Assembly (NCBI GenBank): GCA_030168575.1
Contig: CP115555.1
Coordinates: 744,001 to 808,000 of the forward strand
Direction: 5' to 3'
DNA: 64,000 nt
Source of the DNA: Methanomassiliicoccales archaeon LGM-RCC1
Lineage (GTDB): Archaea > Thermoplasmatota > Thermoplasmata > Methanomassiliicoccales > Methanomethylophilaceae
This document shows, piece after piece, positions 31,058 through 64,000 of the stretch. The position numbers were made by a program, and so were the translations under genes. Each line of letters begins with the position of its first letter. The first letter of the stretch is position 1. The notes under the pieces were generated by a model, which had not been told where the DNA came from, searched no databases, and worked only from the letters and a program-made list of their open reading frames with translations.

Positions 31058-31137
31058 GTTAAACTATTGGCTGAGTATTCTAAAATATGGCTGGTTGAGC
31101 ACATTTCATTAATATAATATCTGCATTGGGCGTAGAT

Positions 31138-32760: not shown

Positions 32761-35700
32761 CTGTACACGCTCGAAACCGGATGCCCTCTCACAGGCGGAG
32801 CATTGGATGTCTACCTCGACATAGTGAGCGGCAGGTCGGACGCACCATACATAGTCAGCCTTGAGCATCCTATCCCCAAGGGTGTGAGAGACGAAGATGC
32901 AAGAGCGGTGATCGGGAAGCTTCTGGAGGTGTATCCCATTCTTACGGCCAGCATCTCGGATAAGAGTGGAGAACCGAGGTTCGTTTTCGGTTCCGTGCCG
33001 GAGGTTACCGTATCGAAAGAAAGGGTGCATGATATCAGAAGGCCCTTTATCCTCTCCGATAGTCTTGCGAGATTCAACATAGTGTCGGGCGATTGCATAC
33101 AGGCAGCGTTCCACCACACGATCTCCGATGGTTTCAGCATAATGGTCCTGAATGAAGCATTGGAGAAGTTGTTCTCAGGTCTTTCCGTGGAAGCGGACAT
33201 CGGATTCCTGAGGGATGCATCCTCATATGCGGATTTCGACATCAAGGGATCATTGGAATTCTTCAGAGGATTACTGGACGACATCTATGATATCCCTGAA
33301 CCGGTACCAGATCCCAACGGCGCCAGCGGACACGTGGGCAGGAGTCTCACATCAAGTGTAAAACAGGTGGCGGAACGTGCCCGTTCATTGGGAACGACCC
33401 CTGCCAACCTTTTGACATCGGCTTTCGGATACACCCTGTCCAGATTCACCGGTTCATCGAAAGCTCTCTTCGGTACCATAGTAAACGGAAGGGACATCAC
33501 AGGCTCGCTTTCCTCTGTAGGTATGTTCGCCCGCACTTTGCCCTTGGTCGTGGACTGCCACGATCGGTCCGTGGCCGAATTCCTGAGGGAGACGAATGAT
33601 ACGATCATATCGGTGATATCGAACCAGCGCTGTCCGTTCCATGCCATCGCCAGTGAGTTCGGTATGGATTTCAGCGTGGTTTTCAACCACCTGTCCGGTC
33701 TGGAGACGGTGCGTCTCGAGGACAGGGAGATCGTCGCCGACATATCATTCGACGTGTTCGTATCCGGGGACACTTATAATCTGTCCTGTACGCACTCGCA
33801 AAAGTACACGGATGACACTGTCCAGAGGATGGCCGAGACCTTCGACAGAATCGTTGCAGGATTGATAGGATGCGAAAGACTGTCCGATATAGGATATACC
33901 TCGGAGGAAGAGCTCGATATCTTGGATTCCATCAGTGATACCGCTGTTCCGTTGAAGTTCAACGACATCACAAAAGCATTCAGACAATCCGTATCGGAAC
34001 ATGCCGACAGAACTCTGCTGACCTATCTAGATCACAACTACACCTACTCCGAGGTCGATAGGATCTCGGACTCCATAGCATCCGCACTCGTAGGTCAGGG
34101 TGTGACCAGCGGAGACAGTGTAGCCGTCATGGTCCCTAGGTCGGAATGGTATCTCCTCGGTGCCCTCGGCGTGTTGAAGACGGGTGCGGCATATGTCCCG
34201 ATCGACACATCCTATCCGGACGAGCGTGTATCATTCATGCTCAGTGATTCGTTCTCTAAAGCGGTAATATGCACTGCCGAGACCAGAGAACGCTGCAAAT
34301 CGCTTTCAGAGATCCCTATCGTCAGTTGCGACGAGGTCAAGACGTCCCGTTTCGGGCACAAGTCGATCTCGCCGACTGATACTGCCGTCATACTATACAC
34401 ATCCGGAACCACAGGAACGCCGAAGGGTTCTCTCATCACGCATCTTGCGGTCGAGAACTATTCAGAATTCTACAGCCGGGCAACATGCACATCTCCGGAC
34501 CACAAGGTGGCGCTTTACCACAGTTTCGGTTTCGACGTACATCTGGAGAGCATGTTCTCCCCCATAATTTCAGGTGCATCGGTCGAGATCATACCCGAGG
34601 ACGTGAGGCTGGACCTCGATCTTCTGTACGATTATGTTACCGACCATCGCATAGACAACCTCCACCTGCCTACAGTCATCGGCAGGATGTTCGCAGAGAA
34701 GCATCCCGAATGCGGACTGAGATATCTGGTGGTCGGAGGCGAGAAGTTCATGGACATGGCAGTCCTCCCAGACTACCCTGTCATGGAGAAGTACGGTCCC
34801 ACAGAGGCCACCGTCTCGGTCACCTATCAGGTTCTGGACGCGAGGACATACACCGAATCGGTGGGTATTCCGATTCAGAACACCGCAGTCTATCTGCTGG
34901 ACGCGGAACATCGCAGGGTCCCGATCGGGGCCGTAGCTGAGCTGTATTTGTCCGGATACCAGCTGTCATCAGGATATCTTAACAATCCCCAGAGAGAAGC
35001 TGAAGTGTTCTTCGACAATCCGTTCTGTAAGGAGAAGGGATACGAGAGGATGTACGCCACAGGGGACTTCTTCAGACTGCTCCCTGACGGTACTCTCGGA
35101 ATAATAGGCAGAAGGGACGGACAGGTAAAGATCAGAGGCAACCGTGTGGAGCTCACAGAAGTCGAGTCCTGCATCAGAATGATGGAGGGCATTGACGATG
35201 TTACCGTCCAGCCCATCGTTCAGGACGATGGCTCCAAGGAGCTCTGCGCATACATCGTGACCTCTCCCTCTTCCGAGATAACCGCTGAACAGATCAGGGC
35301 GTTCGTATCCGAGCGCAAACCCGACTACATGGCGCCCTCGTTCGTCGTCGTCCTGGACAGCATACCTTTGAATGTTAACGGAAAGGTGGACAGACATGCG
35401 CTGCCAGAGCCCAACGAATCCCAACTCATAAGGGAATTCGTCGCACCGAGGAATAATACTGAGAAGGCCCTGTGCGATTCATTCTCTGTGGCCCTGGGCA
35501 TCGACCGCATAGGCATAGAGGATGATTTCATCCGTCTGGGCGGAGATTCTTTGAAAGCTGTCAAAGCGGTCTCCGCATGCAGGTCGTTCGGACTCGAGAT
35601 CAAAGTTTCGGACATCCTGGGCAGGCGTACCCCTAAAAGCATTGCATCATCCATATCACACATTCATACAGAATGCATCTACACATTGGAAACTGGATGC

Positions 35701-38700
35701 CCGTTGACAGGCGGCTCACTCGACATATATCTGGATGTGGAAAGCGGCAAATCGGATTCGGTATACGTCATCAATACGACATACCCCGTACCAGAAGGCA
35801 TCTCTGATAAGCAGGTTCTGGATGCGATATCCGCGCTTATCGGTGTCCACCCTGTTCTGAGATCCAGAATCGTCATTCAGAATGGCGAGCCCTGGTTCGC
35901 CGTCGATGCAAAACCACTGATTACAGTCTCCGATTTACCTGTGGAAGACATCCGCAGACCATTCGAGCTGTCCGAATCTCTCAGCAGGTTCCATATCGTT
36001 TCGGGAAAGTATGTTCAGGCTGCATTCCACCATACGATATCCGACGGTCTTACCTCAGATATAGTCGGCAAGTCCCTAGAATCCATATTGAATGGAATCA
36101 TTCCCGATCGTGATGTTGGATTCCTGAAGGACGCCTCCCTTTATGCATCATCCGAACAATCAGAGGAGTTTTTCATCGAGATGCTTTCCGACACGGAATT
36201 CACTCTGACAGAGGACCTGGAAGGCGAGATAGGTTTCGGACATGTCACCCTATCGCAACCTCTGGAGCGGATAATCGAGTCTGCCAGATCCCTCGGTACC
36301 ACTCCGGCCAATCTCCTTTGTGCAGCGTTCGGATACACTCTATCAAAGTTCGCCGGAACGTCCGACGCGGTGTTCACACATATCGTCAACGGAAGGGACC
36401 TCACAGGTTCTGAGAATTCTGCAGGTATGCTGGTCCGCACCCTCCCACTGGCGTTGGACTGCAAAGACCGTACTGTCAAGGAATTCGTAACGGAGGCGTC
36501 GGAGAGGATCTTCGGCACGGTAGCGAACCAATTATGCCCTTTCCACCGTATAGTTAATGATCTGAACATAAGATTCGGAATCGTATTCAACCATCTCACA
36601 GGTGTTGAGCAACACGGCGATGCCGTCCTTTCCGGAATGAAAGAGAGGGACGTCATCGGGGATCTGACATTCAACCTCATCCAATCAGACGAATCGTACA
36701 TTCTGGCGTACGTTCATTCCTCCAAGTATTCGGAGAGTACGGTCCAGAGTATGGTGCGCGCGTTCGATCTTGTCCTTTCGGGATTCATGTCATGCTCGCA
36801 TCTGTCCGAAATTAGGTACGTCACATCAGAGGACCTGGACAAACTGGATTCCTTGAACGATACGGCTCGTTCGCTGAGATTCAACGATATACTTGAGGCC
36901 TTCAGCCATTCGGTGTCGGAGTATCCTGAGAGGAGGCTCCTTAGCTATCTTGACCGCAGTTACACGTATTCAGAGGTTGACAGGGTAACGGATTCCATAG
37001 CAGCCGCCCTGAGGGCATCCGGTGTGAACAAGGGGGATAACGTTGCGGTCCTGGTCCCAAGGTCGGAATGGTATCTGCTTTGCTCCATAGGTGCTTTGAA
37101 GACGGGTGCGGCATACGTACCCATCGACACATCCTACCCGGACGAGCGCGCATCGTTCATGATCGACGATTCATCTGCGAAAGCAATCCTATGCGTTGCT
37201 GAGACCATGGATCGTGCTTCCAGGCTTTCATCGGTGACAGTAATATGCTGCTCCGAATGCGCTGATGCGGAGTTCGAACCCGTAACGGTTTCTCCAGAAG
37301 ATGCGGCCATCGTGCTGTACACATCGGGAACCACCGGTCAGCCCAAAGGTGCGGTGATCGGCCGCAGGGCCCTGATCAATCTCTCGGAGTGGTATGTATC
37401 ATGCACGGACATGGTGCCCGACGACGTCTATTCTTTCTACACCGCCTATACCTTTGATATGCATGCCCTAGCATTGTACCCCGTTTTAGTCTGTGGAGCA
37501 TCCTTGGACATAGTGCCCGAGGACATAAGGCTGGACATGCATGTGCTGAACGATCATTTTGTGAAAGCTCACACGACCCATACCTTCATGACCACGCATC
37601 TGGGCAGGATGCTGGCGGAGCTAGGTCTCGAATCCGATCTCAGGGTACTGTTTGTCGCTGGGGAGAAGCTTGGCAAGTTCGATGCCAGTACCCCGTACCA
37701 GGTCGTGGATGGGTACGGTCCAACCGAATCGCTTGCATTGGTCACACAGATACCGGTCAATGATAAGAAAGATCCCTCGTCTGTAGGAAGGTTCCAGTCC
37801 AACATCAAGGGATACATACTCGATGCAGAGCACCGCAGGGTGCCTGTAGGAGCGGTCGGCCAGCTGTTTCTCTCGGGATATCAGCTGTCATCCGGATATC
37901 TGAATGCTCCGGAGAGGAATGCTGAGGCATTCTTCAGCAACCCCTTCTGTAAAGAGAAAGGATATGAGAGGATGTACGCCACAGGGGATTTCTTCAGACT
38001 GCTCCCCGACGGTACTCTCGGAATAATGGGCAGAAGGGACGGACAGGTGAAGGTCCGCGGAAACCGTGTCGAATTGACGGAGGTCGAGTCATGCATAAGA
38101 TCCATGGAAGGAATCGATGATGTCACTGTCCAACCCATCATCCAGAATGATGGTTCCAAGGAGCTTTGTGCTTACATAGCAATCTCTTCATCAGCGCCAT
38201 CTGTTCCCACAGAACAGGTGAGGTCGTTCGTATCGGAGCGTAAGCCCGATTACATGGTGCCTTCGTTCGTCGTTGTCCTGGATCGCATACCTTTGAATGT
38301 TAACGGAAAGGTTGACAAGAGTGCGTTGCCTAAGCCGGACGTATCCGAACTTAAAGCAGAGTTCACAGCACCTGGGAATGATACAGAGAAGGCGCTGTGC
38401 GAAGCATTCTCTGTGGCCCTGGGCATCGATCGCATAGGCATAGACGACGATTTCATCCGCCTGGGCGGAGATTCTTTGAAAGCGGTTAAAGCGGTTTCAG
38501 TGTGCAGGTCGTCTGGAATGAAAATCCTTGTTTCAGATATACTGACCAAGCGTACCCCCAGAGCTATCGCTGCATCATCAGTCTCAGCATATACTGAAAA
38601 CATCTACTCATTGGAAACAGGATGTCCGCTGACAGGCGGTTCCCTCGATGTATATCTGGACATCGAGAGCGGCAGGTCCGATTCAGTTTACATCATCGAT

Positions 38701-41700
38701 GCGACATACCCCATGCCCGAAGGTACAACCGACAATCAGGCACTGGAGGCGATATCGACTCTTTTGGATGTCCACCCGGTCCTGAGGTCCAGGATAACGG
38801 TCGATAAAGGGGAGCCGTGGTTCTCTATCGATTCAGAACCGCAGATCACAGTCTCCGATTCTCCGGTGGATGATGTCCGCAGGCCATTCGAACTGTCCGA
38901 ATCTCTCAGCAGGTTCCATATCGTTTCGGGAAAGTATGTGCAGGCGGCATTCCACCATACGATATCTGACGGCCTCACATCGAGCATCATAGGTAAGTCG
39001 CTCGAATCCATATTGAATGGAATCATTCCCGATCAGGATGTCGGATTCCTGAAGGACGCCTCCCTTTACGCATCATCCGAACAATCGGAGGAGTTCTTCA
39101 GCGATATGCTATCTGATACGGACTTCATTCTTACGGAAGGTCCGGACGGACATTTCGGTACGGGGCACATAATACTCTCCGAATCTCTTGACAGGATAGT
39201 TTCGTCGGCCAGATCCCTCGGTACCACTCCGGCCAATCTCCTTTGTGCAGCGTTCGGATACACTCTATCCAGGTTCTCAGGAACTCGCGATGCGGTTTTC
39301 ACCCACACCGTCAACGGAAGGGACCTCACAGGTTCTGAGGGTTCCGCAGGAATGTTCGTTCGCACCCTCCCGCTTGCATTGGACTGCAGGGACCGTACTG
39401 TGGGTGAGTTCGTCTCGGAGGCATCGGAGAGGATCTTCGGCACGATATCGAACCAGCTCTGCACATTCCATAGCATAGCCAAGAATCTCGGCATAGGGTT
39501 CGGCGTGGTGTTCAACCATCTTACCGGAGTCGAACAGTACGGCGATGCTGTGTCTTCTGAAATGAAAGAGAGCGACATTATCGGCGACCTTACATTCAAC
39601 CTTATTCAGTCAGACGGATCGTACATTCTGGCGTACGTTCATTCCTCCAGATATTCGGAGGGTACGGTCCAGAGGATGGCGCATGTATTCGATCATATCC
39701 TTTCGGGATTCATGTCATGCTCGTATCTTTCCGAGATTGGTTACACCTCGGCAGAGGATCTAGATATTCTGGATTCCATCAACCGTACCGCAGTACCGCT
39801 CAATTTCAGCACTGTACTGGATGCATTCAGGCACTCAGTATCTGAATTCCCGGACAGAGCTCTGCTATCGTACATGGGCCGCAGATACACCTATGCGGAG
39901 GTCGATAGGATCACGGATTCCATCGCGTCCTCACTGGCAGGACAGGGTGTGGGCATAGGAGATAGGGTGGCCATCGTGGTTCCTAGGTCGCAATGGTACC
40001 TCCTCTGTGCATTGGGCGTGATGAAAGCCGGTGCGTCATACATCCCAATCGATACATCCTATCCGGACGAGCGCATATCGTTCATGATAGACGATTCATC
40101 CGCGAAAGTGGTCCTGTGCACTTCTGAGATCAAAGGTCGCTGTGAATCCCTGACAGGCAGGCTGATTATAGGATGCGATGGTATTCAGCCATCAGAGTTC
40201 AAGCCTATGACGGTTCAGCCCACCGATGTCGCACTGATTCTTTACACATCGGGTACCACGGGCAGACCCAAGGGAACCCTCATATCGCATCGTGCAGTCG
40301 AGAACATATCGGAATGGACCGCGTATCGCTTCTCCCAGTCGTCAGAGGACGTATTGGGTATGCATTCCAGTTTCGGTTTCGATGCCCATCTCAATGCCCT
40401 CTTCGCCCCGTTCCTCACAGGCTCTGCTGTGGACATCGTCCCCGAGGAGTCCCGTCTTGACATCGATTCTCTGTATTCCCACATAGAGGGTGCGGGTATA
40501 TCGGGTATGTTCCTGTCGACACAGCTCGGAAAACTGCTCATCGAGAAGCATCCAGAGGTAAAGCTCAGGAATGTGATATTAGGCGGGGAGGCGTTGGGGA
40601 AGTTCGGTGTGTTCACCGATGTCAACGTCATCGACGGATACGGCCCGACAGAGAACACCGCCTGCACGTCATCGATATCGGTCTCGGAACGTAATTACAG
40701 CAGTTCCGTGGGAATACCGAATATGAATTCCAAAGTGTACATCCTGGACAGCGAACGCCGCAGGGTACCTGTCGGTGCCGTGGGCGAACTGTACGTCTCA
40801 GGATACCAGCTTTCCTCAGGATACCTCAATAATCCGGAGAAGAACTCAGAGGTGTTCCTTGACAACCCGTTCTGCGATGAGGAGGGTTATGAGAGGATGT
40901 ATGCCACAGGCGACTTCTTCAGACTGCTCCCGGACGGCACCCTCGGCATCATAGGAAGAAGGGATGGACAGGTGAAGATACGCGGAAACCGTGTGGAGCC
41001 TACCGAAGTCGAAGCATGCATAAGATCCATGGAAGGCATCGGCGATGTCATCGTCCAGTCTATCGTCCAGAACGACGGTTCCAAGGAGCTCTGTGCATAC
41101 GTCGTACTGCATTCAGCATCAGGCCAGCATATCTCTGGGGAATCCGTGAGGTCGTACGTGGCCGAGCGCAAGCCCGACTATATGGTCCCTTCCTTCGTGA
41201 TAATCCTTGAGAAGATCCCGCTTAACGTTAACGGTAAGGTCGATATGAGCGCCTTACCGAAGCCGGATATATCGAGCCTCAGGAAGGAGTACACAGCGCC
41301 TAGGAACGATATCGAGAAAGTCCTGTGCGACGCATTCTCTTCAGCTCTTGGTATTGAAGGCATAGGTATCGACGATGACTTCATGCGTTTGGGCGGGGAC
41401 TCCCTGAAAGCGATCAGAGCGGTATCATCATGCAGGTCGCAGGGCATAGAGATCAAGGCGAAGGACGTGGTGTCCCTGCGCACCGTGCGCGCTATCTCCT
41501 CCACAGTATCGTCGGCCGCCGATATGGGCTCCTCTGTAGGAAATATCGGGGAGATACCCATTCACAGCATATTCCTGAAATCGGGCACAGCTGATCAGAG
41601 GGACACATTCGTACAGCACATGGATCTGCTCTGTCCGCAGTCTTTGGACGAGGGCATCCTCCAGCATGCCATAGATGCCGTCACGGACAGACATGATATG

Positions 41701-44700
41701 CTCCGTGCCATCTACGACGGAAGGCCGAGGATAAGGGACCAGGGTATCAGGGTCTGCGATGTAACGCTGGTGGAAGCATTCTCGGAGGACGACATCCTGT
41801 CATCCTCAGCATTCGCGTTAAGCACGTTGTCACTTTCAGAGGGCAGGCTGATGGCATGTCTTCTCATATCGTACGAGGGCAGGAGATACATCCGCCTCAT
41901 GATCAACCATATAGCCGTGGACGGGGTGTCATGGAACATCATACTGTCGGACCTGTCCGAATGCATCTCTGCAGCCATTGACGGAAGGGAACCGTCCCTG
42001 CCGCCCAGGACCATGCCCATAAGGGATTGGATCGCCAGGGGATACCAACCGACAGAATCCGAGAGGCGCTACTGGGATAAGGTAAAGATAGATGCCAATG
42101 TTCCCGAGCTGGAGTCCGAGCCGTTCTCCATCAGCTTGCCCCTTTCTGCCGAGAACCGCTACGGCATCGGGAAACAGGACATATTGCTGACCGCATTTGC
42201 TGAATCCTTCAAGGATATCACGGGAACAGATCTGGTGCTGAGGATGGAGGGTCACGGAAGGGACCACGATGTCGAGCGCACCGTGGGATGGTTCACTTGC
42301 ATGTATCCGCTGGTGCTGTCCACGACCGGCGATCCTGTACGCGATGTCTTCTCTGTGAGGAAGGCCAGACGCTCCGTACCGAAAGGAGGCAGGGGATACG
42401 GATATCTAAGAAACGATCTTCCGCCCATAACGTTCAATTATCTCAGTTCGGCCTTCAGCTATTCTGACAGCCTCCTAGAGGCTGTTAGGTTACCTATCAG
42501 CTATCAGGAACCCCCGGACATGGGCGAATTGCTATCATTCAATATCGCAGAGACCGATGACGGCCTCATAATATCGGGCAGATGTCCGATGCAGCTGCCG
42601 ATCTTCGAGACAATAAAGAACAGGCTGGGATCGATCTTGCAGGCCTTGGCGGAATCTTTATCGGCCCCGCTCTCTGGACCACAGCTCAATGTGTATCTCG
42701 ACGAGATGGCCAATGACAAGGGGACAGCATACTCTGCTCCCGGAATGTTCCCGATTCCGGAAGGAGCATCCGATGACGACATTCTCCATGCGATAGACGC
42801 TGTTCTGGATGCACACCCCGTCCTATCGATGCACATATCCGAGGTCGGAGGCGAACCGTGGTTGGTGCCCGGTAACAGACCGATTATTGAAAAATCATCG
42901 GATGACGAGTTCCTCCGTCCGTTCAACTTCTCTGAATCCCTGTGCAGGTTCCGCATAGTGCCCGGATACATTCAGTGGAACGTCCACCATGTGATAATGG
43001 ATGCAGAGTCAAGAAGAATACTCATCCGCGATCTCGGAATGGCCTTTGAAGGAGTCCAGATACCGGCGGAATACGGATTCCTGACATCCGCCGCAGACCA
43101 GCCTGATGCGGATTACCAGGAGGATGCCCTTTCTTATTATGATGGCGTCATAGAGGACATCGAACTGCCTGTGGAGGACGGCAACGGTGTGAAAGGTTCA
43201 TTCGAGATGCCGATCCCAATCACTTCAAGAGACATCCCTTCGGGCATGACCGCTGGAGGATTCTTCACAGCTGTGTTCGGTTACACCCTGTCTAGATTCA
43301 CTGGTTCCACGCAGGCGGTGTTTCCGATGACCGAGAAGGGAAGAAACGCCGAGGGCACCGAGGATGCTGTGGGCATGTTCGTCAATACATTCCCTGTATC
43401 GATCGATTGTAGCGACCGTCCGGTATCGGAGTTCCTGAACTCATCGATGGATTCGATCCTTTCCTCGATGTCCCATTCCAAGGTCCCGTTCATGGATGTT
43501 GCAGGACGCTACGGATTGACCATGAAAGTTTCCTTCGAGTTCCTCGCAGACATCAACTCCAGCATACGCTCGATAACATCGGCTGCAAGCGGAGATTCTT
43601 CCGGCCATGGGATCTATTCGGCTGATTGGGTATCGGACCTGGCCATCTATGTCACCGAATCCAATGACGGTTTCATGGCATCATTGGAGCATTCCGGAAG
43701 GTACTCGCAAAGAACGTGCGAGCGTTTCCTGCATGCGTTTAATGAGATTGCAAAGGGTCTGATAGCCTGCGAGAGGCTGTCGGACATCCAATACACATCT
43801 TCGGAGGACATAGACATCCTCGATTCCATCAACGACACAGCTGCTCCGCTGAGATTCAACAATATCCTGGAAGCGTTCAGACATTCGGTTTCGGAGTACC
43901 CGGACAGGACCCTCCTTACCTACATGGATCGTAGCTACACCTACACAGAAGTAGATGTTATCTCGGATTCCATAGCGACCACCCTAAAGTCATCAGGCGT
44001 GATCAGAGGAGATAATGTAGCGATCATGGTTCCGAGATCGGAATGGTATCTTATCTGCGCAATCGGCGTGATGAAGACGGGAGCGGCATACGTCCCTATC
44101 GACATATCGTATCCTGACGAGCGTATATCGCATATGTTGAACGACTCATCCTCGAAAGCCGTTGTAGTAACAGGAGAGACCAAAGAACGCTGCGGTTCTC
44201 TGACCGGACTCCCGACCGTAGGCTGTGAAGGGTTAGAACCCTCCCATTTCACGCCGGTATCAGTCTTGCCGACCGATACGGCAGTCATCCTTTACACATC
44301 CGGTACCACAGGTAAGCCGAAGGGTTCCAAGATACCGCACCAGTCACTGGAGAACTTCAGTGAATGGACCTCCTCCTACACCGATTTCAAGAGCGGGGAT
44401 GTGTTCGCGCTGTTCGCATCGGTAGCGTTCGATATGCATACCATGTCGTTGTACCCGCCGATATTCACCGGAGGTTCGGTGGACATAGTTCCGGAGGACA
44501 TCCGTCTGGACATCCATCGTCTGAATGAGCATTTCGTGTCCCGCGGAGTGACGCATACATTCATCACAACCAACTTGGGGAAGATGTTCGCATCCAGTGT
44601 CAAAGCGTCCACATTGCGTTGCCTGGCCTATGGAGGGGAGAAACTCGGCGAATTCACTGCACCGGATTTCATCGGTGCTTTGGAGACGTACGGGCCGTCG

Positions 44701-46776
44701 GAGAATCTTGCGGTCAGTGCGGCGATCCCGGTAAACGAACGTGCATATAGCTCGTCTGTCGGCCATCTTATCCAGAACGTTAAGGGATACATACTCGATG
44801 CGGACCATCGCAGGGTACCTGTGGGAGCGGTAGGAGAACTGTTCCTGTCAGGATATCAGTTGTCATCAGGTTATCTCAACAATCCCGAAAGGAACGCCGA
44901 GGCGTTCTTCGGCAACCCATTCTCCGATGAGAAGGGATACGAGAGGATGTACGCTACCGGAGACTTCTTCAGGCTGCTCCCGGACGGTACGCTCGGCGTC
45001 ATAGGCAGAAGGGACGGACAGGTGAAGATACGCGGTAACCGTGTCGAACTGACGGAGGTCGAGGCATGCATCAAGGCAATGTCCGGAATAACCGGCGTCA
45101 CCGTGCAGCCTATAGCCTCCGCGAGCGGAACCAAGGAGCTCTGCGCATATGTGGTCGCATCATCTGCGACATCTGTATCCGACATTCAGAAGTTCGTCTC
45201 AGAAAGGAAGCCGGACTACATGGTACCGTCGTTCGTCATCAAGCTAGACCGGATCCCTCTGACGGTCAACGGTAAGGTGGACAAACGTGCACTGCCTGAG
45301 CCGGATCTATCCGTGCTCAGCTCCGATTATTCGGAGCCGAGGGATGAGGATGAGCGCATCCTCTGCAGAGCATTCGCTGAGGCCTTAGGTCTCGAAAGAG
45401 CGGGAATCGATGACGACTTCCAGCGTCTGGGCGGCGATTCGCTCAAAGCTACTTGGATCGCATCGATCTTCAACGAGAAATCCGGCAAGCATGTCTTCGC
45501 CCGCGATATCATGAGGAAGCGCACCGTGAGGGCGATTCTTTCAGAGCAGGAAGCCAAGGACAAGATACAGAGCTTCGTCTACGACATGGACAAGGGACAT
45601 CCTCCTTCGTTCTCGCAGATGGACGTCATAAAGTACATGCTGGTATCGAATCTCAGCCTTAACATCGCCACCATGGTGACTCTGCCACCGTTCATCAGTT
45701 TCGACATGGTGTACAAGGCTGTTGAAGCCTTGATACAGACGACTCCCGACCTCCGCATGCATATGATCGCCAAGAGCGAGAGGGACGTGACCGTAAGATA
45801 CGATGCGCACATCGATATCGAGACCGCTCAATGCGACCCGGAGGAGTTCGCAAAGACCTTCGTCAGACCCTTCACACCGTTCGGCCCGTGTCTGTCGAGA
45901 TTCGCGGTAGTGGAATGGGAGGGGCAATGTACCCTGTTCATCGACATCTGCCATTTGGCCTTCGACGGGCGTTCCATCGCTCCTCTGGCGATGCGCATAC
46001 AGTCCATAATGACCGGCACCATACCTCCGATCGATGACGGAGTGATCCGTCAGGCAGGATATGACAATGCATACATGCTGACCGAGACGTTCAAGAGGAG
46101 GGCCGCAGAGTTCCTCCAGACGTTGGAAGGAAGCGACGATACCTATGATGACGGAGTGGTGAGTGAGGATGACAGTGGTGTAGTCCAGATGCCCCTTTCC
46201 ATAAGCGCTGCGGATATGAAGCATGTCACGCAAAAGCTCAACTGCGGCCCGGCGGACGTGTTCTATATGGCGGAGGCATATGCGCTCAACCGCGTGTACG
46301 GCAAGGACAAGATGTTCTACATCATCGAGGACGGAAGGGGAGAGGTCGATGTGGAAGATTCGGTCGGAGTGTTCATGAGGCTCCATCCGATATGGATAAC
46401 CAAAGACTCCGACGATCTGATGGGATATGTAGAGAGTGCGGTCAAACAGGTCGACAGGACCCTCCAGTATCTGGACATCCCGCTGCTGCCCATATTCGAA
46501 GCACGTCCCACGATATATCCGGATGTGGTGATCCAGTTCGAGAATTACAAGATCGGCGAAGGAGAATCGGAGGGCTCGATGGGAGGCGGACTGGCCGCCA
46601 GACAGTTGCCCGCACTGTCACGTTCCCCGTTCAGGATGCACTCAGTCGTCGTACCTCACGGCGACGGATTTGCAATCGGGACCACCTATGCGGAATACCA
46701 GTCCGGAAAAGTGGTCAATCAGATAGTAATGGAGTTCGACGGGTTCCTCAGTGAGCTCGCAGAGCACATACGCTGA
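31138..46776 (+). CDS. Five-module non-ribosomal peptide synthetase
   Basis: Single 5,212-residue protein, the dominant gene of the window. Reading the core motifs gives A1-T1 / C1-A2-T2 / C2-A3-T3 / C3-A4-T4-E / C4-A5-T5 / C5. Carrier serines (LGGDSL) are at residues ~499, 1471, 2446, 3422 and 4768. Adenylation P-loops (TSG[ST]TGxPKG) are at ~140, 1088, 2062, 3035 and 4386. Condensation HHxxxDG-type motifs are at ~659, 1630, 2606, 3950 and 4938. It would build a five-unit product with a D-residue at position 4. No thioesterase or reductase domain ends the chain; a condensation-like domain does, so release is presumably by C5. The ATG at 31138 lies ~25 nt after TTAATATAA (31108-31116), so it is probably leaderless; a TTG four codons earlier is unlikely. 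Codon use is less G/C-ending than in neighbouring core genes. NRPSs are known in a few methanogens, but the product is unknown. Confidence 0.95.
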   Translation: MLTAQEILSTTYRKMREDPTELCVYETDGDKSYSNSEFLAMIGRCTNYLKDGGILRKDVVVINTGRSALHFAFRYACMNIGAIYFSLDPSVPEQRAEMMIASSGAKLVIRRDFSLPEGLQSDFEPEVISDNEPAFIVFTSGSTGTPKGVLQSRECISNLVETQIGTIPLKMTDKVGTISSVSFIVSNVDLYPTFNGGASLYIIDDALRGDIPRMRAFLDKVRLDYMILIPRYYDALGRPSSIRNVVFGGDKAGVQSRVDGVRLFNSYGLSEGLICIGEVTNYNLDPPLGEPPAGSSITVEDEDGNPADVGEIVCRGRGLLLGYLDDMSEGYPETPIRVLHTGDIGKRMEDGIHILGRIGEQVKINGHRVEPAETRYAMSTIDGVDDAAVAVFHRPDGSPYLCGFYTGKIEPEKLRGELMSKIDSYLVPRRFVRMDSLPRNSNGKVDMHALPEPDQSTLLTEYVAPSNDAERTLCEAFSEVFGIEGLGVDDDFIRLGGDSLRAIKLSYICRDHGLSVSIADILSRRTPRALAASSGGLAETLLYTLETGCPLTGGALDVYLDIVSGRSDAPYIVSLEHPIPKGVRDEDARAVIGKLLEVYPILTASISDKSGEPRFVFGSVPEVTVSKERVHDIRRPFILSDSLARFNIVSGDCIQAAFHHTISDGFSIMVLNEALEKLFSGLSVEADIGFLRDASSYADFDIKGSLEFFRGLLDDIYDIPEPVPDPNGASGHVGRSLTSSVKQVAERARSLGTTPANLLTSAFGYTLSRFTGSSKALFGTIVNGRDITGSLSSVGMFARTLPLVVDCHDRSVAEFLRETNDTIISVISNQRCPFHAIASEFGMDFSVVFNHLSGLETVRLEDREIVADISFDVFVSGDTYNLSCTHSQKYTDDTVQRMAETFDRIVAGLIGCERLSDIGYTSEEELDILDSISDTAVPLKFNDITKAFRQSVSEHADRTLLTYLDHNYTYSEVDRISDSIASALVGQGVTSGDSVAVMVPRSEWYLLGALGVLKTGAAYVPIDTSYPDERVSFMLSDSFSKAVICTAETRERCKSLSEIPIVSCDEVKTSRFGHKSISPTDTAVILYTSGTTGTPKGSLITHLAVENYSEFYSRATCTSPDHKVALYHSFGFDVHLESMFSPIISGASVEIIPEDVRLDLDLLYDYVTDHRIDNLHLPTVIGRMFAEKHPECGLRYLVVGGEKFMDMAVLPDYPVMEKYGPTEATVSVTYQVLDARTYTESVGIPIQNTAVYLLDAEHRRVPIGAVAELYLSGYQLSSGYLNNPQREAEVFFDNPFCKEKGYERMYATGDFFRLLPDGTLGIIGRRDGQVKIRGNRVELTEVESCIRMMEGIDDVTVQPIVQDDGSKELCAYIVTSPSSEITAEQIRAFVSERKPDYMAPSFVVVLDSIPLNVNGKVDRHALPEPNESQLIREFVAPRNNTEKALCDSFSVALGIDRIGIEDDFIRLGGDSLKAVKAVSACRSFGLEIKVSDILGRRTPKSIASSISHIHTECIYTLETGCPLTGGSLDIYLDVESGKSDSVYVINTTYPVPEGISDKQVLDAISALIGVHPVLRSRIVIQNGEPWFAVDAKPLITVSDLPVEDIRRPFELSESLSRFHIVSGKYVQAAFHHTISDGLTSDIVGKSLESILNGIIPDRDVGFLKDASLYASSEQSEEFFIEMLSDTEFTLTEDLEGEIGFGHVTLSQPLERIIESARSLGTTPANLLCAAFGYTLSKFAGTSDAVFTHIVNGRDLTGSENSAGMLVRTLPLALDCKDRTVKEFVTEASERIFGTVANQLCPFHRIVNDLNIRFGIVFNHLTGVEQHGDAVLSGMKERDVIGDLTFNLIQSDESYILAYVHSSKYSESTVQSMVRAFDLVLSGFMSCSHLSEIRYVTSEDLDKLDSLNDTARSLRFNDILEAFSHSVSEYPERRLLSYLDRSYTYSEVDRVTDSIAAALRASGVNKGDNVAVLVPRSEWYLLCSIGALKTGAAYVPIDTSYPDERASFMIDDSSAKAILCVAETMDRASRLSSVTVICCSECADAEFEPVTVSPEDAAIVLYTSGTTGQPKGAVIGRRALINLSEWYVSCTDMVPDDVYSFYTAYTFDMHALALYPVLVCGASLDIVPEDIRLDMHVLNDHFVKAHTTHTFMTTHLGRMLAELGLESDLRVLFVAGEKLGKFDASTPYQVVDGYGPTESLALVTQIPVNDKKDPSSVGRFQSNIKGYILDAEHRRVPVGAVGQLFLSGYQLSSGYLNAPERNAEAFFSNPFCKEKGYERMYATGDFFRLLPDGTLGIMGRRDGQVKVRGNRVELTEVESCIRSMEGIDDVTVQPIIQNDGSKELCAYIAISSSAPSVPTEQVRSFVSERKPDYMVPSFVVVLDRIPLNVNGKVDKSALPKPDVSELKAEFTAPGNDTEKALCEAFSVALGIDRIGIDDDFIRLGGDSLKAVKAVSVCRSSGMKILVSDILTKRTPRAIAASSVSAYTENIYSLETGCPLTGGSLDVYLDIESGRSDSVYIIDATYPMPEGTTDNQALEAISTLLDVHPVLRSRITVDKGEPWFSIDSEPQITVSDSPVDDVRRPFELSESLSRFHIVSGKYVQAAFHHTISDGLTSSIIGKSLESILNGIIPDQDVGFLKDASLYASSEQSEEFFSDMLSDTDFILTEGPDGHFGTGHIILSESLDRIVSSARSLGTTPANLLCAAFGYTLSRFSGTRDAVFTHTVNGRDLTGSEGSAGMFVRTLPLALDCRDRTVGEFVSEASERIFGTISNQLCTFHSIAKNLGIGFGVVFNHLTGVEQYGDAVSSEMKESDIIGDLTFNLIQSDGSYILAYVHSSRYSEGTVQRMAHVFDHILSGFMSCSYLSEIGYTSAEDLDILDSINRTAVPLNFSTVLDAFRHSVSEFPDRALLSYMGRRYTYAEVDRITDSIASSLAGQGVGIGDRVAIVVPRSQWYLLCALGVMKAGASYIPIDTSYPDERISFMIDDSSAKVVLCTSEIKGRCESLTGRLIIGCDGIQPSEFKPMTVQPTDVALILYTSGTTGRPKGTLISHRAVENISEWTAYRFSQSSEDVLGMHSSFGFDAHLNALFAPFLTGSAVDIVPEESRLDIDSLYSHIEGAGISGMFLSTQLGKLLIEKHPEVKLRNVILGGEALGKFGVFTDVNVIDGYGPTENTACTSSISVSERNYSSSVGIPNMNSKVYILDSERRRVPVGAVGELYVSGYQLSSGYLNNPEKNSEVFLDNPFCDEEGYERMYATGDFFRLLPDGTLGIIGRRDGQVKIRGNRVEPTEVEACIRSMEGIGDVIVQSIVQNDGSKELCAYVVLHSASGQHISGESVRSYVAERKPDYMVPSFVIILEKIPLNVNGKVDMSALPKPDISSLRKEYTAPRNDIEKVLCDAFSSALGIEGIGIDDDFMRLGGDSLKAIRAVSSCRSQGIEIKAKDVVSLRTVRAISSTVSSAADMGSSVGNIGEIPIHSIFLKSGTADQRDTFVQHMDLLCPQSLDEGILQHAIDAVTDRHDMLRAIYDGRPRIRDQGIRVCDVTLVEAFSEDDILSSSAFALSTLSLSEGRLMACLLISYEGRRYIRLMINHIAVDGVSWNIILSDLSECISAAIDGREPSLPPRTMPIRDWIARGYQPTESERRYWDKVKIDANVPELESEPFSISLPLSAENRYGIGKQDILLTAFAESFKDITGTDLVLRMEGHGRDHDVERTVGWFTCMYPLVLSTTGDPVRDVFSVRKARRSVPKGGRGYGYLRNDLPPITFNYLSSAFSYSDSLLEAVRLPISYQEPPDMGELLSFNIAETDDGLIISGRCPMQLPIFETIKNRLGSILQALAESLSAPLSGPQLNVYLDEMANDKGTAYSAPGMFPIPEGASDDDILHAIDAVLDAHPVLSMHISEVGGEPWLVPGNRPIIEKSSDDEFLRPFNFSESLCRFRIVPGYIQWNVHHVIMDAESRRILIRDLGMAFEGVQIPAEYGFLTSAADQPDADYQEDALSYYDGVIEDIELPVEDGNGVKGSFEMPIPITSRDIPSGMTAGGFFTAVFGYTLSRFTGSTQAVFPMTEKGRNAEGTEDAVGMFVNTFPVSIDCSDRPVSEFLNSSMDSILSSMSHSKVPFMDVAGRYGLTMKVSFEFLADINSSIRSITSAASGDSSGHGIYSADWVSDLAIYVTESNDGFMASLEHSGRYSQRTCERFLHAFNEIAKGLIACERLSDIQYTSSEDIDILDSINDTAAPLRFNNILEAFRHSVSEYPDRTLLTYMDRSYTYTEVDVISDSIATTLKSSGVIRGDNVAIMVPRSEWYLICAIGVMKTGAAYVPIDISYPDERISHMLNDSSSKAVVVTGETKERCGSLTGLPTVGCEGLEPSHFTPVSVLPTDTAVILYTSGTTGKPKGSKIPHQSLENFSEWTSSYTDFKSGDVFALFASVAFDMHTMSLYPPIFTGGSVDIVPEDIRLDIHRLNEHFVSRGVTHTFITTNLGKMFASSVKASTLRCLAYGGEKLGEFTAPDFIGALETYGPSENLAVSAAIPVNERAYSSSVGHLIQNVKGYILDADHRRVPVGAVGELFLSGYQLSSGYLNNPERNAEAFFGNPFSDEKGYERMYATGDFFRLLPDGTLGVIGRRDGQVKIRGNRVELTEVEACIKAMSGITGVTVQPIASASGTKELCAYVVASSATSVSDIQKFVSERKPDYMVPSFVIKLDRIPLTVNGKVDKRALPEPDLSVLSSDYSEPRDEDERILCRAFAEALGLERAGIDDDFQRLGGDSLKATWIASIFNEKSGKHVFARDIMRKRTVRAILSEQEAKDKIQSFVYDMDKGHPPSFSQMDVIKYMLVSNLSLNIATMVTLPPFISFDMVYKAVEALIQTTPDLRMHMIAKSERDVTVRYDAHIDIETAQCDPEEFAKTFVRPFTPFGPCLSRFAVVEWEGQCTLFIDICHLAFDGRSIAPLAMRIQSIMTGTIPPIDDGVIRQAGYDNAYMLTETFKRRAAEFLQTLEGSDDTYDDGVVSEDDSGVVQMPLSISAADMKHVTQKLNCGPADVFYMAEAYALNRVYGKDKMFYIIEDGRGEVDVEDSVGVFMRLHPIWITKDSDDLMGYVESAVKQVDRTLQYLDIPLLPIFEARPTIYPDVVIQFENYKIGEGESEGSMGGGLAARQLPALSRSPFRMHSVVVPHGDGFAIGTTYAEYQSGKVVNQIVMEFDGFLSELAEHIR
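32761..35670 (+). other. NRPS module 2: C1-A2-T2
   Basis: C1 has FHHTISDGFS. A2 has YTSGTTGTPKGS, FGFDVHLESMF (Asp235 present), KYGPTEATVS, YATGDFFRLLPDG, GRRDGQVKIRGNRVELTEVE and NVNGKVDRHAL. Pocket residues read by eye: D235 V236 E239 H278 V299 G301 K322 V330 S331. I cannot match this to a known substrate. T2 is DDFIRLGGDSLKAVKAV. Confidence 0.8.
35671..38600 (+). other. NRPS module 3: C2-A3-T3
   Basis: C2 has FHHTISDGLT and is nearly identical in long stretches to C3. A3 has YTSGTTGQPKG, YTFDMHALALY, GYGPTESLAL and the shared YATGDFFRLLPDG block. Pocket residues read by eye: D M L F F A G A L. T3 is DDFIRLGGDSLKAVKAV, the same as T2. Confidence 0.8.
36283..39269 (+). repeat. Near-identical DNA in NRPS modules 3 and 4 (C2/C3)
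   Basis: A 62-nt run is identical at 36283-36344 and 39208-39269, a ~47-nt run around 35968-36014 matches 38892-38938, and a ~30-nt run near 36080 matches 39003. The identity includes third codon positions. This shows recent duplication or gene conversion between the two condensation domains. The coordinates given span from the first to the last copy. Confidence 0.85.
38601..42660 (+). other. NRPS module 4: C3-A4-T4-E (D-residue)
   Basis: C3 has FHHTISDGLT. A4 has YTSGTTGRPKGT, FGFDAHLNALF and GYGPTENTAC (pocket D A N F I G G A C by eye). T4 is DDFMRLGGDSLKAIRAV. An epimerization domain follows (41500-42660) with INHIAVDGVSW (second His of HHxxxDG kept), EGHGRDHDVERTVGWFTCMYP and ITFNYLSS. 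This residue is expected to be D-configured. Confidence 0.85.
42661..45570 (+). other. NRPS module 5: C4-A5-T5
   Basis: C4 follows the E domain, so it should be of the DCL type. Its active site reads HHVIMDAES, with Ala for the Gly of HHxxxDG. A5 has YTSGTTGKPKGS, VAFDMHTMSLY and TYGPSENLAV (pocket D M M F A G T A V by eye). T5 is DDFQRLGGDSLKATWIA. Confidence 0.8.
45571..46776 (+). other. NRPS terminal condensation-like domain C5
   Basis: About 400 residues beginning PSFSQMDVIKYML, with DICHLAFDGRS as the HHxxxDG equivalent (first His replaced by Cys, second His and DG kept), FMRLHPIWIT and VVIQFENYKI. It is divergent from C1-C4. At the end of the chain it would release the peptide by condensation with an amine or alcohol, or by cyclisation. 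This is inference by analogy with terminal C domains of fungal and some bacterial NRPSs. Confidence 0.7.
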
Positions 46777-59222: not shown

Positions 59223-61732
59223 TGCTGAGGGCAGCGCTCATTCTGATAGCAGTCTTTGCAATGGTTCTGTGCCTGGCCCCGATTGAAGATCAGTCGGATG
59301 CGGATATCAGGGAGATGTCCAATGGGGCTGTGACCATAAGCGGCGACGTGACTCTTACGGAGGACAGGACCTTCAATGATGGATCGACGATAACCATAGC
59401 TTTGGGCACCAGGTTGGACATCTCCACATACACCATGGATTTCGGTGCTGACTCCAACGTAATATTCCTGGGCAACGCCACCATAATCTCGCAGTACGGC
59501 GAGCTCGTTCTGGGCAAAGGGACCAGCTTCATCCTCGTCGGTGCGGTCCTTCCCGGGATGCCTGACGAGATAACATACACATTCGACGGAACGGTCACCG
59601 TAGACAACACCGGCATAACCGGGCGCGGCGCGACAGTATCCTTCACTCCAGACACCGATGATCATTCCATCCAGGTATCCTGGAAGACCACGGACATGTT
59701 CATCAACGATCCGAAGTTCACTTACAAATACACTGCCAGCTCGGGTTCGGGATCCACACAGGAGATACTGAGCTTCTCCACCGTGGATGTCATAGAGAGG
59801 TCCTACGATGACGGGAAGCTGAAGTCCATCAACACCATCAATGTGGTCGCATACGACGCGGAAAACACGATGGACACAACGATCACGACAAGCGGCGCAG
59901 TCAACGGAACGATGAGATTCTCCGAGATCAAATCCACCACCCATTACGAGGATTCCGATGTGACCAGCGTGCTTCATATCGCCGGCATGGGCATCACCAC
60001 GATCACGGGCAACTCGGACTTCATAGTGACCTTGGATTCGTCTGCGACCAATGTCCTGATCGAGCGTACCACGGCAGGCACGATGGACTCGAGGACGACA
60101 CTGACTACCACCACAATTAATGCGGAACTGGAGTTGACAGAGGTTAAGAAGCTCCTGTTCCCCGAAGAAGGAGAAGGGGTCGATATCCTCAGGTACATGA
60201 AAACCACCGCACAGATAGGAACGACAGAGAAGGCTTCCGGCAGCAGCAAAACGGTAACGGACATCGTACTCATCATAGATGGAAGGGACACTGCTACAAA
60301 CTTCCTAAGTCTCGAATTCACGGAAGACGATGTGGTGAACACGATGGTGGCCGGAAAGGCGGATATAACGTCGATGGCGTTGACCAGGAGTCTGGTCGTG
60401 GATCTCGACGCCACCATCCCGTACGTTACCCTCGACAAGACCGAGTCCGGAGCGAACATCATGCATGTGGAAGTGAAGGAGCTAAAGATCTTCACAGACA
60501 ATTTGGATGTCCTTTCACTGTACACGATATACTCCAAGGAAGGAAAGCTGACAATCCAGCAGCTCCTCGACAACAGCGAGAAGCTGAGCGTCTCGATGAC
60601 CTCGTTCAAAGAGGATTCGGACGGAGATGGAAGGACCGATACCACAGCCCTGAGTTTCGGGATGGTCCTCGAGGTGGACACCAGAGGTAAGAACACTGCC
60701 ACGGTGTACTTCGACGAGCTGACCACGAAGGTAGAATACGGCGCCAGCACAGCTGATATGCACATCGACAAGACCGAGATATACATGGAATCGGAAGGTT
60801 CTCTCTCGGATTGTCTGGATGCGTTTACGGAAGGCTTCCATTTCACCGAAGATGCCCATTCGGAATTCCAGCTCTACAACGCCGGATTCGTCATCAAGTA
60901 TCCTGACGAGAAGGGATCGTACACTATACAGAGCATCAAGTCCTCAGACTCTTCACCCAAGTTCGCATCGTTGACCATGTCCATCGATTATTCCAAGTAT
61001 CTGGGAGAGACGACCATAAGGGGCAACGTTTCCGCAGTGGGCTATACCCTGATACTGCAGAGGGAAGCGACCTACTCCGATCCCGAGGGTACCGCCAACA
61101 TCGATTTCCGCACGAACGATCTGGCCGGTGCGTTCTCGATGATCTTCAAGGACGGCATAGCATTCTCCGCCAACCTCTACATGCCTTGGATGCTGGACGT
61201 GACCTATTACGACATAGTCTTCAGGATCGTCGGGGACGATGCCTCGCTGACGCTCACCCATGGCAATCTGGCCATAGACGGTTACAATTACATGACCGAG
61301 GGCATACTGGCCATGGTCGACAAGATGGCCCACAACGATTTCAGCCTGGACACGAGGCTTTCCCTGACAGCCACCGAAGTGGAGATCTACAAGGATTCGC
61401 ACGAGGTCGTTCTGAATGCGTTCTCGGATGTGGAGCTGGACATCAGGAAAGTATCCGCAGTTCTGAAGAGAGAAGACAGTCTGAAGGCATCCCTCGATAA
61501 GGCCCACCTCAGCCTCGTGTACGAGGACGGTTCGGAACTGGACAGGCAGCTGAAGCATCTGGATGTCGCAAAGGACCTTTCGGGCGCAGAGCCTGAGCCA
61601 TCATTCATCGAGAAGAATGCCTTGTATCTGCTGATAGCATTCGCAGCCGCATCGTTGGTGCTGACGGTCATCCTCATCTACTTGAGGGTGAAGAAACCGG
61701 ATATGCTGAAGATGACGGAAGATCAGGAATGA
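59219..61732 (+). CDS. Large secreted, membrane-anchored surface protein, unknown family
   Basis: Protein of 837 residues from the ATG at 59219, which overlaps the MFS stop and has GGAGGG about eight bases upstream. A signal peptide ([21 protein letters not shown]) leads into a long Thr/Ser/Asp-rich, beta-strand-rich ectodomain that opens like a beta-helix ([14 protein letters not shown], then [11 protein letters not shown]). Near residue ~790-825 a single helix ([21 protein letters not shown]) and a basic tail (RVKKPDM) anchor the C-terminus. It contains few cysteines. I recognise no named domain; similar adhesin-like or envelope proteins are common in gut methanogens. Its last 10 nt overlap the Nudix gene on the other strand. 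Confidence 0.8.
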
Positions 61733-62073
61733 AGACGTATCTGTTCCCTTGCCCAGGGGACAGTGTCCTCATACTCCTCCCTGTCGAAGGACAATTGATC
61801 AGGGAGATCGCTGAATAGCTCGGATTCCATCTCGCAGTCGCCCTTGACTTTATCTTTCAGGATTGCGGCGCAGACATCGCAGTAGCCTATGTCGCGTGTG
61901 GAGACTATCTCGATCTCGTACCCCGCTTCTTCAAGGAATTCCCTTGCTGCAGCCTGCTCGGAGGTCTCTCCTTCCTCGACGTGACCGCCCGGCATCTCCC
62001 ACCCGTTGCGCTTCTTGTGCCAGACCATCAGGAACCTATCTCCGGAGAATGCTATTGCGTAGGCGGTGCGCAT
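61723..62073 (-). CDS. Small Nudix hydrolase (MutT-like)
   Basis: Protein of 116 residues. The Nudix box reads [27 protein letters not shown] with all catalytic glutamates. The fold begins [28 protein letters not shown]. Two cysteines (YCDVCAA) follow the box. Such short proteins clean up oxidised or non-canonical nucleoside triphosphates, though the substrate is not determinable here. It begins 1 nt after the flpA stop (62075) on the same strand, so the two are co-transcribed. Confidence 0.85.
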
Positions 62074-62074
62074 A

Positions 62075-62734
62075 TCATTCCCTTCCGATGACTATAATGG
62101 CATGCGCCTTCTCGTACGGGTCCAAAGGCTCATCGTCGATGACCTTGTAACCTCTGTCGCGGATAACTTTCTCCGCATCCCTGAATATCGATTCCGGCGA
62201 CGCGGTCACATCCTCGGAGCGCGCCTTCACGGCCACCATCCCGTACTCTGCGCTGAAGGCGTCCATGTTGTCGCATAGAATCTTCGCCTGCATCTTCTGG
62301 GCCACGTCCTGGTAGACCACGTCCACGCTGTCGGCGAACATGGAGTATTCACTGGGCACTGTGGCATCCCCGAGTATGGGCATCATGTTGGGGCGGGTCT
62401 CGCAAGTTCCGACCAGGTCCCTGAACATCCTCTGGGCGAACTCCACGCAGTAGACCTTCCCGTCAGCGCAGATATCTGCGACATGCGACGGAGTGGTGCC
62501 GCTGGAAGCTCCCAGATAAAGGACCTTGGAGTCCTTCCTGAACGGGAACTGCTTCCCTCCCACGGTGAGATAGGCAGCGAGCTTGCTCCTCCTAGGATCC
62601 CATTCGCGGTACTCGGTACCGGAGATGGTGAACAGCCTCTCTCCGTAGATCCTCCTGCCAGGGCAGAGGGATTCCGTGTAAAGCCTTCCCCTGTCGAGGA
62701 AAACCCTGTCCGAAGTGAAGTTCAGTGGCTCCAT
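62075..62734 (-). CDS. flpA: Fibrillarin-like rRNA/tRNA 2'-O-methyltransferase
   Basis: Protein of 219 residues, the catalytic subunit of box C/D RNPs. [18 protein letters not shown] near residue 70 is the SAM-binding motif. [15 protein letters not shown] and [16 protein letters not shown] are the following conserved strands, and [10 protein letters not shown] supplies the Lys-rich motif. The ATG at 62734 lies ~25 nt from the TATA box centre, whereas the ATG at 62746 would lie inside the promoter; I therefore choose 62734 and expect a leaderless transcript. nop5 is not adjacent in the visible part. It diverges from the NAD kinase gene. Confidence 0.95.
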
Positions 62735-62755
62735 CGTCCTGTCCATGGTATATTC

Positions 62756-62763
62756 TTTATAAA
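62756..62763. promoter_or_regulatory. Palindromic TATA box serving two divergent genes
   Basis: TTTATAAA is a perfect palindrome with its centre 24.5 nt from the A of the NAD kinase ATG (62784) and 25.5 nt from that of flpA (62734). It is the only TATA-like element in the 49-bp interval. Confidence 0.65.
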
Positions 62764-62783
62764 ATCCTGTCAATCGAGTGACC

Positions 62784-64000
62784 ATGATCACGATTGATAC
62801 CCTCTCGGCTATCTCGGACGCAGTCCTCGAGGAGATCCGCAAGATCCCGGACTCCAACTGCAAGGGCGACGAGATATGCATAGGAGCGGACGGCACCCCC
62901 ACCTCCAGGATAGACAAGGTGGCAGAGAACGCCGTCCTGATGTACCTTGAGAGGAACGGTGTGCCGCTGAACGTCCTGAGCGAGGAGATAGGCTTCGTCG
63001 ACAGGGGAGGGGAGGAGACCCTCGTGCTGGATCCGATAGACGGATCCAACAATGCGATCGCAGGCATACCTTACTATACCGTGTCATTGGGAGTCGGCAA
63101 GGACAACCTGTCGGGGATGAGGCTCGGATACATCCGCAACCTGGTCACCAGGGATTCCTACTGGGCCGAGAAAGGCAAGGGCGCTTTCAAGAACGGCGAG
63201 AGGATACATGTCCGCAAGCCCGATTTCAAGAACCTGTTCATCATGAACTACATCGGGAAGCACGCACATCCAGATGCGTTCCTGATGTCCAAGAAGGCAT
63301 CGTCCAGCCGTTGGATGGGATGCTCGTCTCTAGAGATCGTGGAGGTCGCGGAGGGACAGGCGGATGCGTTCTGCATGTACTCGGCTAATTACGTCCACTG
63401 CGAGAGGATTGTGGACATCGCGGCCGCTGTGCTGATCCTTAGGGAGGCCGGCGGCGAGATCTACGACATGGAAGGAAACGTCCTCGAGATGAAGTACGAT
63501 CTCGAGCACAGGAGCAACACCGTTGCTGTAGGCGACAAGACCGTGTTCGATTACCTGGTAAGGGGAAAGGACCCTGTCAGGGGCCACAGGTATGGAATCT
63601 ATGCAAACACCTCACTCTCCAAGGCTGTTGAGTACACGCAGCAGGTGATCGACGCGCTGAAAGGCCAGGAATACGTTGTTGACGATCAGATCGCCAAGAT
63701 AATGGGCATAGAAGGTACGCCGCTGAAGGACATGGATGTCGACATCGTCATAGTAGTTGGAGGAGACGGCACATTGCTGAGGGTACTCCAGCACACCGAT
63801 GCGATGGTCATCGGGATCAACGGCGGCAGCGTCGGATTCCTTGCGGAGATCGACCGCGATCACATCAAGGACGGCATAGACCGTCTCATCAGAGGAGACT
63901 ACACCATAGAGTCCCGTTTCAAGCTCAGCTCTTGGTACAACGGAGAGTACCTGAAGGACTCTGTCAACGAGGCATTGATACACACCTCGTCCGTGGCCAA
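62784..64000 (+). CDS. Bifunctional inositol-phosphatase-like/NADP phosphatase - NAD kinase (3' end outside window)
   Basis: Open from the ATG at 62784 to the window end (405 codons seen). Residues ~1-265 are an inositol monophosphatase/FBPase-type domain with LSEEIG, LVLDPIDGSNNAIAGIP (the DPxDGS metal site), MGCSSLEIVEVAEGQADAF and CERIVDIAAAVLILREAGG. Residues from ~275 begin the NAD kinase fold, with VVGGDGTLLRVL (GGDGT, catalytic Asp) and GINGGSVGFLAEI. The same fusion is known from Methanocaldococcus (MJ0917), where one chain makes NADP+ and hydrolyses NADP/NADPH. The IMPase metal site reads DGSNN instead of DGTxN. The start lies ~24 nt from a TATA box, so the transcript is probably leaderless. 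Confidence 0.92.
   Translation, partial: MITIDTLSAISDAVLEEIRKIPDSNCKGDEICIGADGTPTSRIDKVAENAVLMYLERNGVPLNVLSEEIGFVDRGGEETLVLDPIDGSNNAIAGIPYYTVSLGVGKDNLSGMRLGYIRNLVTRDSYWAEKGKGAFKNGERIHVRKPDFKNLFIMNYIGKHAHPDAFLMSKKASSSRWMGCSSLEIVEVAEGQADAFCMYSANYVHCERIVDIAAAVLILREAGGEIYDMEGNVLEMKYDLEHRSNTVAVGDKTVFDYLVRGKDPVRGHRYGIYANTSLSKAVEYTQQVIDALKGQEYVVDDQIAKIMGIEGTPLKDMDVDIVIVVGGDGTLLRVLQHTDAMVIGINGGSVGFLAEIDRDHIKDGIDRLIRGDYTIESRFKLSSWYNGEYLKDSVNEALIHTSSVA

Follow-up and report, generated by a model that had tools for sequence, protein, structure and literature searches.

Two divergent genes, flpA on the minus strand (start codon ATG at 62734) and, on the plus strand, a NADP phosphatase/NAD kinase fusion gene (ATG at 62784; hereafter NADK), are divided by a 49-nt gap. 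Judging from its sequence, this gap is very probably a compact bidirectional archaeal core promoter in which a single palindromic TATA box is used by both genes. Such a double role of one symmetric TATA element had been put forward in the original prediction, and it is strongly supported by the spacing, the symmetry and the strict conservation of the box, by the existence of relatives with two boxes and by a shift of the flpA initiator. Single-TATA two-way promoters are already known in archaea; new here are a conserved member with two protein genes predicted to be leaderless and the evolutionary series to which it belongs.

The analysed window (the whole stretch of 64,000 nt) belongs to a genome of 1.66 Mb assembled as a single contig, and the organism belongs to the methylotrophic gut methanogens of the order Methanomassiliicoccales. 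The features surrounding the gap are the following:

61723..62073, minus strand: Nudix hydrolase, adjoining the 3' end of flpA
62075..62734, minus strand: flpA, fibrillarin-like rRNA/tRNA 2'-O-methyltransferase, 219 aa (Pfam PF01269, E 1.9e-75; NCBIfam NF003276 above cut-off)
62756..62763, no strand: TTTATAAA, perfectly palindromic TATA box, scoring 7.0 on each strand against the genome's own TATA model
62784..64000, plus strand: N-terminal part of the bifunctional NADP phosphatase/NAD kinase, NADK (Pfam PF00459 and PF01513)

In NADK an inositol-phosphatase-like domain is fused to a NAD kinase. The open frame comprises 542 codons in the genome and the window ends inside it; the best NCBIfam match (NF010678) remains below the cut-off because the protein part inside the window is truncated. 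The fusion is found in most of family f1; genera g4, g10 and g13, like the remainder of the order, encode NADP phosphatase and NAD kinase in two neighbouring frames that often overlap slightly. The 1-nt gap between the Nudix hydrolase gene and flpA suggests that the two are probably co-transcribed. Nop5 and flpA are adjacent in many other archaea; the sole Nop5 (PF01798) gene of this genome lies ~500 kb from flpA (G000:C1:298215 vs 806078). An open reading frame of 5216 codons occupies positions 31126-46776 of the window on the plus strand.

The sequence and the coordinates of TTTATAAA given by the original prediction are exact, and its distances were right as well: the dyad at 62759.5 is separated from the ATG by 25.5 nt for flpA and by 24.5 nt for NADK. 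The first base of the box is thereby at -29 from the flpA ATG and at -28 from the NADK ATG. These positions were compared with a TATA model trained on 444 kb of the genome (201 upstream regions, expectation-maximisation), the seed being the sole prior knowledge of the locus. The model reads TTTATA[CT]N and is carried by about half of the upstream regions. Across the 201 upstream regions the three most frequent positions of the first base of the box before the start codon are -28, -29 and -30, i.e. a leaderless geometry. Of the leaderless promoters in this genome whose box falls at -28 to -30, 78-92% show YR at -1/+1. No BRE signal is recognisable in the promoters of the genome (<0.2 bit per position), so the orientation of TFB is not readable from the sequence; the flanks of TTTATAAA fall at the 50th percentile on the NADK side and at the 65th on the flpA side.

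The start codons themselves were considered with their alternatives. For flpA, the in-frame upstream ATG at 62746 (the choice of a simple gene caller) was rejected: it is missing in 3 of 8 close species and would place the box at -17. The start at 62734 (MEPL/MESL) is found in all eight. A GTG at 62778 was likewise rejected as the NADK start, the conserved position in 8/8 species being the ATG at 62784. The predicted transcription starts are:

62735, minus strand: predicted flpA start, 1 base before the A of the ATG (YR at -2/-1 in 7/8 species; first base of the box at -28)
62784, plus strand: predicted NADK start at the A of the ATG, leaderless (Y at -1 in 8/8 species; first base of the box at -28)

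A leaderless archaeal start is expected to have a box centre ~26 nt upstream, a Y at -1 and no Shine-Dalgarno sequence, and NADK, with its box at -28 and its Y at -1 in 8/8 species, conforms to this pattern. For flpA, with the box at -29 from its ATG and the YR just upstream of it, a leader of at most one base is predicted. From the start codons and the YR dinucleotides the two starts are predicted to lie 49-50 bp apart with the box midway. The gap holds one symmetric TATA that scores equally on both strands, as expected of a single-TATA two-way promoter. In the literature collection searched, no start-site map for Methanomassiliicoccales was found.

The conservation of the gap was followed on flpA loci gathered from 90 of the 102 family genomes, with the starts aligned. 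The nearest clade (clade A) consists of eight species (L101/L102, L103-L109), in all of which the gap is exactly 49 nt long and TTTATAAA is unchanged, scoring 7.0 in each direction. In this clade 28 of the 49 columns are invariant, with a longest unbroken run of 21 nt, and a conserved core can be delineated:

62745..62776, no strand: conserved core ATGG[TC]A[TC]A[TC]TCTTTATAAAATCCTGTCAAT[CG]G in the eight species, invariant at 62754-62774

Among four-fold degenerate columns just 2 of 66 in flpA and 1 of 99 in NADK (3/165 together) are invariant in the same species; set against this, the 21-nt run means that the block is under strong purifying selection. The eight species share ancestry and do not represent eight independent tests, and aligning the gap at the nucleotide level with that of remoter species gave no information. 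The core is 32 nt long and roughly centred on the box, extending ~11 nt to the flpA side and ~13 nt to the NADK side. Beyond the 8-bp box the conserved flanks are asymmetric; it is possible that the two directions differ in strength or that a regulator binds there.

Indeed, the conservation reaching 11-13 nt past either edge of the box, most pronounced toward NADK, is more than a basal promoter needs. It would be explained if the block were mainly an operator, with a regulator on the ATCCTGTCAAT side and/or at ATGGTATATTC controlling one or both genes. We regard this as rather unlikely, since the 19-mer TTTATAAAATCCTGTCAAT is unique in the genome at up to 3 mismatches, with no regulon seen, and the core is centred much as a two-way TBP/TFB footprint would be. 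The extended motif TTTATAAAATCCTGTCAAT was accordingly rejected as a regulon site on the basis of its single occurrence. An operator is compatible with a shared box, and both could be true together.

The relatives provide a view of how the shared box may have arisen. Among family members that do not belong to the contracted clades, divergent pairs spaced by 65-171 nt mostly carry two boxes, at a distance of 16-121 nt from each other. These boxes lie mostly 25-32 nt from their own start; several of the weaker ones score low and some promoters are unresolved. The wider gaps with two boxes suggest that the shared box is probably a merger of two ancestral promoters. In a concatenated-protein tree clade A is sister (93/86 support) to L111, L116 and L118, whose gaps measure 84-86 nt. 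Two further clades of the same genus have contracted gaps: clade B (L112, L114, L122-124) with 53-55 nt and a single TATAAAAG-type box, and clade C (L126, L128, L129, L132) with 50-51 nt and a single CTATTAAG-type box. Both are placed in another branch (83/87) than clade A, so the contraction to one box probably occurred at least twice in the genus. The symmetric box is found only in clade A and not in the contracted clades B and C.

The flpA initiator differs between clade A and the other lineages. The -1 position of flpA is a Y in 40 of 50 cases from other lineages, as would follow from transcription starting on the A of the ATG, vs a purine in 7/8 species of clade A, where the YR is shifted one base upstream; NADK keeps its Y. 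Starts at 62735 and 62784 would be separated by 49 bp, with the dyad at 24.5 nt from either of them, i.e. the shift by one base makes the predicted two-way geometry exactly symmetric. This suggests that the flpA initiator has moved in register with the box, in species that are related and hence non-independent.

These observations also bear on the possibility that the box drives one gene only, the other one using a different TATA-poor or internal promoter, and that the symmetry is incidental. In clades B and C, where the single box scores 6.2-9.2 toward flpA and just 1.4-2.3 toward NADK, such one-sided service is conceivable. Within the window a weak alternative box could be seen in TATATT at 62750-62755 (3.5 forward, 5.4 reverse), which the original prediction had overlooked when it stated, wrongly, that no other TATA-like site is present. 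As a second box this hexamer was rejected: it fits the register of neither gene, and its conservation is not strict. With the genome-trained TATA model no other in-register box was found in the 49-nt gap. The box of clade A has equal scores in the two directions and stands at the modal spacing of both genes, NADK has the Y at -1 in all eight species, and the flpA initiator is shifted in register with the box. Moreover, the palindrome scores 7.0 vs 9.7 for the genome's best-scoring box, which is unlike the expectation under one-direction selection. Service of one gene only is therefore improbable in our estimation, and use of the box by both genes remains the preferred reading.

The proposed mechanism may then be as follows. 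TBP would bind the palindromic TTTATAAA, and TFB would join it in either orientation, given binding of TBP and TFB both ways. The polymerase would thereby be loaded either toward NADK, presumably starting at the A of the ATG at 62784, or toward flpA, presumably starting at 62734/62735. Only one complex is expected to assemble at a time, so that the two events would be mutually exclusive, and both mRNAs would be leaderless or nearly so. As to the origin of this arrangement, a wider ancestral intergenic region with two separate boxes would have contracted. In its broadest form the proposal is that divergent intergenic regions of this genus contracted repeatedly to 49-55 nt with merging of the boxes, that selection in clade A holds both the palindrome and the spacing, and that the one TBP site is an obligatory switch between two leaderless genes; it is put forward tentatively, as a possibility somewhat short of even. 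If true, the series of two boxes, one asymmetric box and one palindromic box with shifted initiator would be a natural experiment on promoter direction in archaea.

The chance occurrence of such an arrangement was also estimated. TTTATAAA occurs 15 times in the whole genome. The probability that a random position is flanked on each side, at a distance of 26-31 nt, by the ATG of an ORF with a minimum of 150 aa comes to 2.2e-4, as computed on 856 kb (half the genome), and hence ~0.003 sites with the two-sided geometry are expected among the 15; two were found. The other 15 palindromic octamers made up of A and T only have 78 sites in the sampled half of the genome, and none of these shows the geometry (with ORFs of 100 aa or longer). 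A rough gene caller gave 112 divergent pairs, too few for a peak at 50 nt to become visible in the distribution of their gaps.

The second site is G000:C1:1512013 (locus L096 position 12013; L223, L225), where a single TTTATAAA is situated midway in a 50-nt gap, between two predicted leaderless starts. The genes are an MtaA-like methylcobamide:CoM methyltransferase (best match NF040654, below cut-off) and a member of the geranylgeranyl-reductase family (TIGR02032, below cut-off). The gap of this pair is 50-51 nt in five other species (L227, L228, L230, L234, L237), which have one shared box in the forms TTTATAAC, TTTATATT, TTTATAAA, TTATTAAT and TTTATATA. The spacing is thus fixed while the box drifts, which argues that the single shared box is a recurring design in the genome, independent of the functions of flpA and NADK. 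At another place (G000:C1:705720, locus L089 position 5720) a single TTTATAAC lies between the divergent genes pyrF and a radical SAM gene, at 30 nt from either start, and scores asymmetrically (7.5 vs 2.2).

The original prediction also held that sharing the TBP site may couple RNA modification and NADP supply. That joint regulation of RNA methylation and NADP supply is what the promoter is for seems to us very doubtful on the sequence evidence. The divergent flpA-NADK linkage is kept in the family, as such coupling would have it, and is looser across the order: outside the family the genes are roughly 0.35-6 kb apart and mostly still divergent. Most relatives, however, have two boxes, and some carry other genes between flpA and NADK. 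In two species of the genus the intervening gene is a 5S rRNA gene, which accounts for flpA-NADK gaps of 382 and 482 nt in L113 and L119, respectively:

L113:2234-2355, minus strand: 5S rRNA gene between flpA and NADK
L119:2222-2343, minus strand: 5S rRNA gene between flpA and NADK

The linkage thus predates the shared box, and it is also maintained where the boxes are separate or other genes intervene, so dedicated coupling is not indicated. The same design joins unrelated genes at C1:1512013, and if initiation is mutually exclusive, competition is as much to be expected as co-expression. With one TATA, flpA and NADK may equally compete rather than be co-expressed.

In archaea, two-way promoters have mostly been seen as giving rise to meaningless antisense RNA, whereas here the box stands between two conserved protein genes and is under evident selection. 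The natural variants, together with the two-box relatives, offer a test of what sets direction when BRE is weak, and also of whether sharing a TATA leads two neighbouring genes to cooperation or to competition. For annotation in this group the rule can be derived that a divergent gap of 49-51 nt means a shared box, which fixes both start codons.

Compared with the ordinary divergent archaeal promoters in the rest of the family, the present one has the same gene pair, orientation and box-start distance for each gene; the ordinary form has two boxes and gaps of ~65-90 nt or more, and clade A has one box in 49 nt. The closest known case is PF1918 of Pyrococcus furiosus, where two starts 49 bp apart from one TATA were confirmed by in vitro transcription (Gruenberger et al. 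2019, PMC6640164). The bidirectional promoters of that organism have a near-symmetric TATA, and symmetric TBP binding was proposed as the cause (PMC6640164). The flpA/NADK gap resembles PF1918 in having one near-symmetric TATA midway between starts ~50 bp apart, which are here predicted from sequence. It differs in that P. furiosus has a BRE-TATA-BRE motif and that the reverse transcript studied there is an antisense RNA with no known function, whereas flpA and NADK are two conserved genes with predicted leaderless mRNAs, no recognisable BRE and a site fixed across species. In symmetric prokaryotic two-way promoters in general, symmetry lets the polymerase load both ways, as the work of Warman et al. 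(2021, Nat Microbiol 6:746) is summarised in PMC12825309 and PMC10268837. In E. coli the two directions interact little at basal activity and compete only once one direction is strongly activated (PMC12825309). As far as these summaries go, the bacterial promoters share with the model proposed for flpA/NADK the use of one core element on which the polymerase loads in two orientations. Their form is a near-symmetric -10 element with starts usually 18 bp apart (PMC10268837), compared with ~50 bp in the archaeal TATA form.
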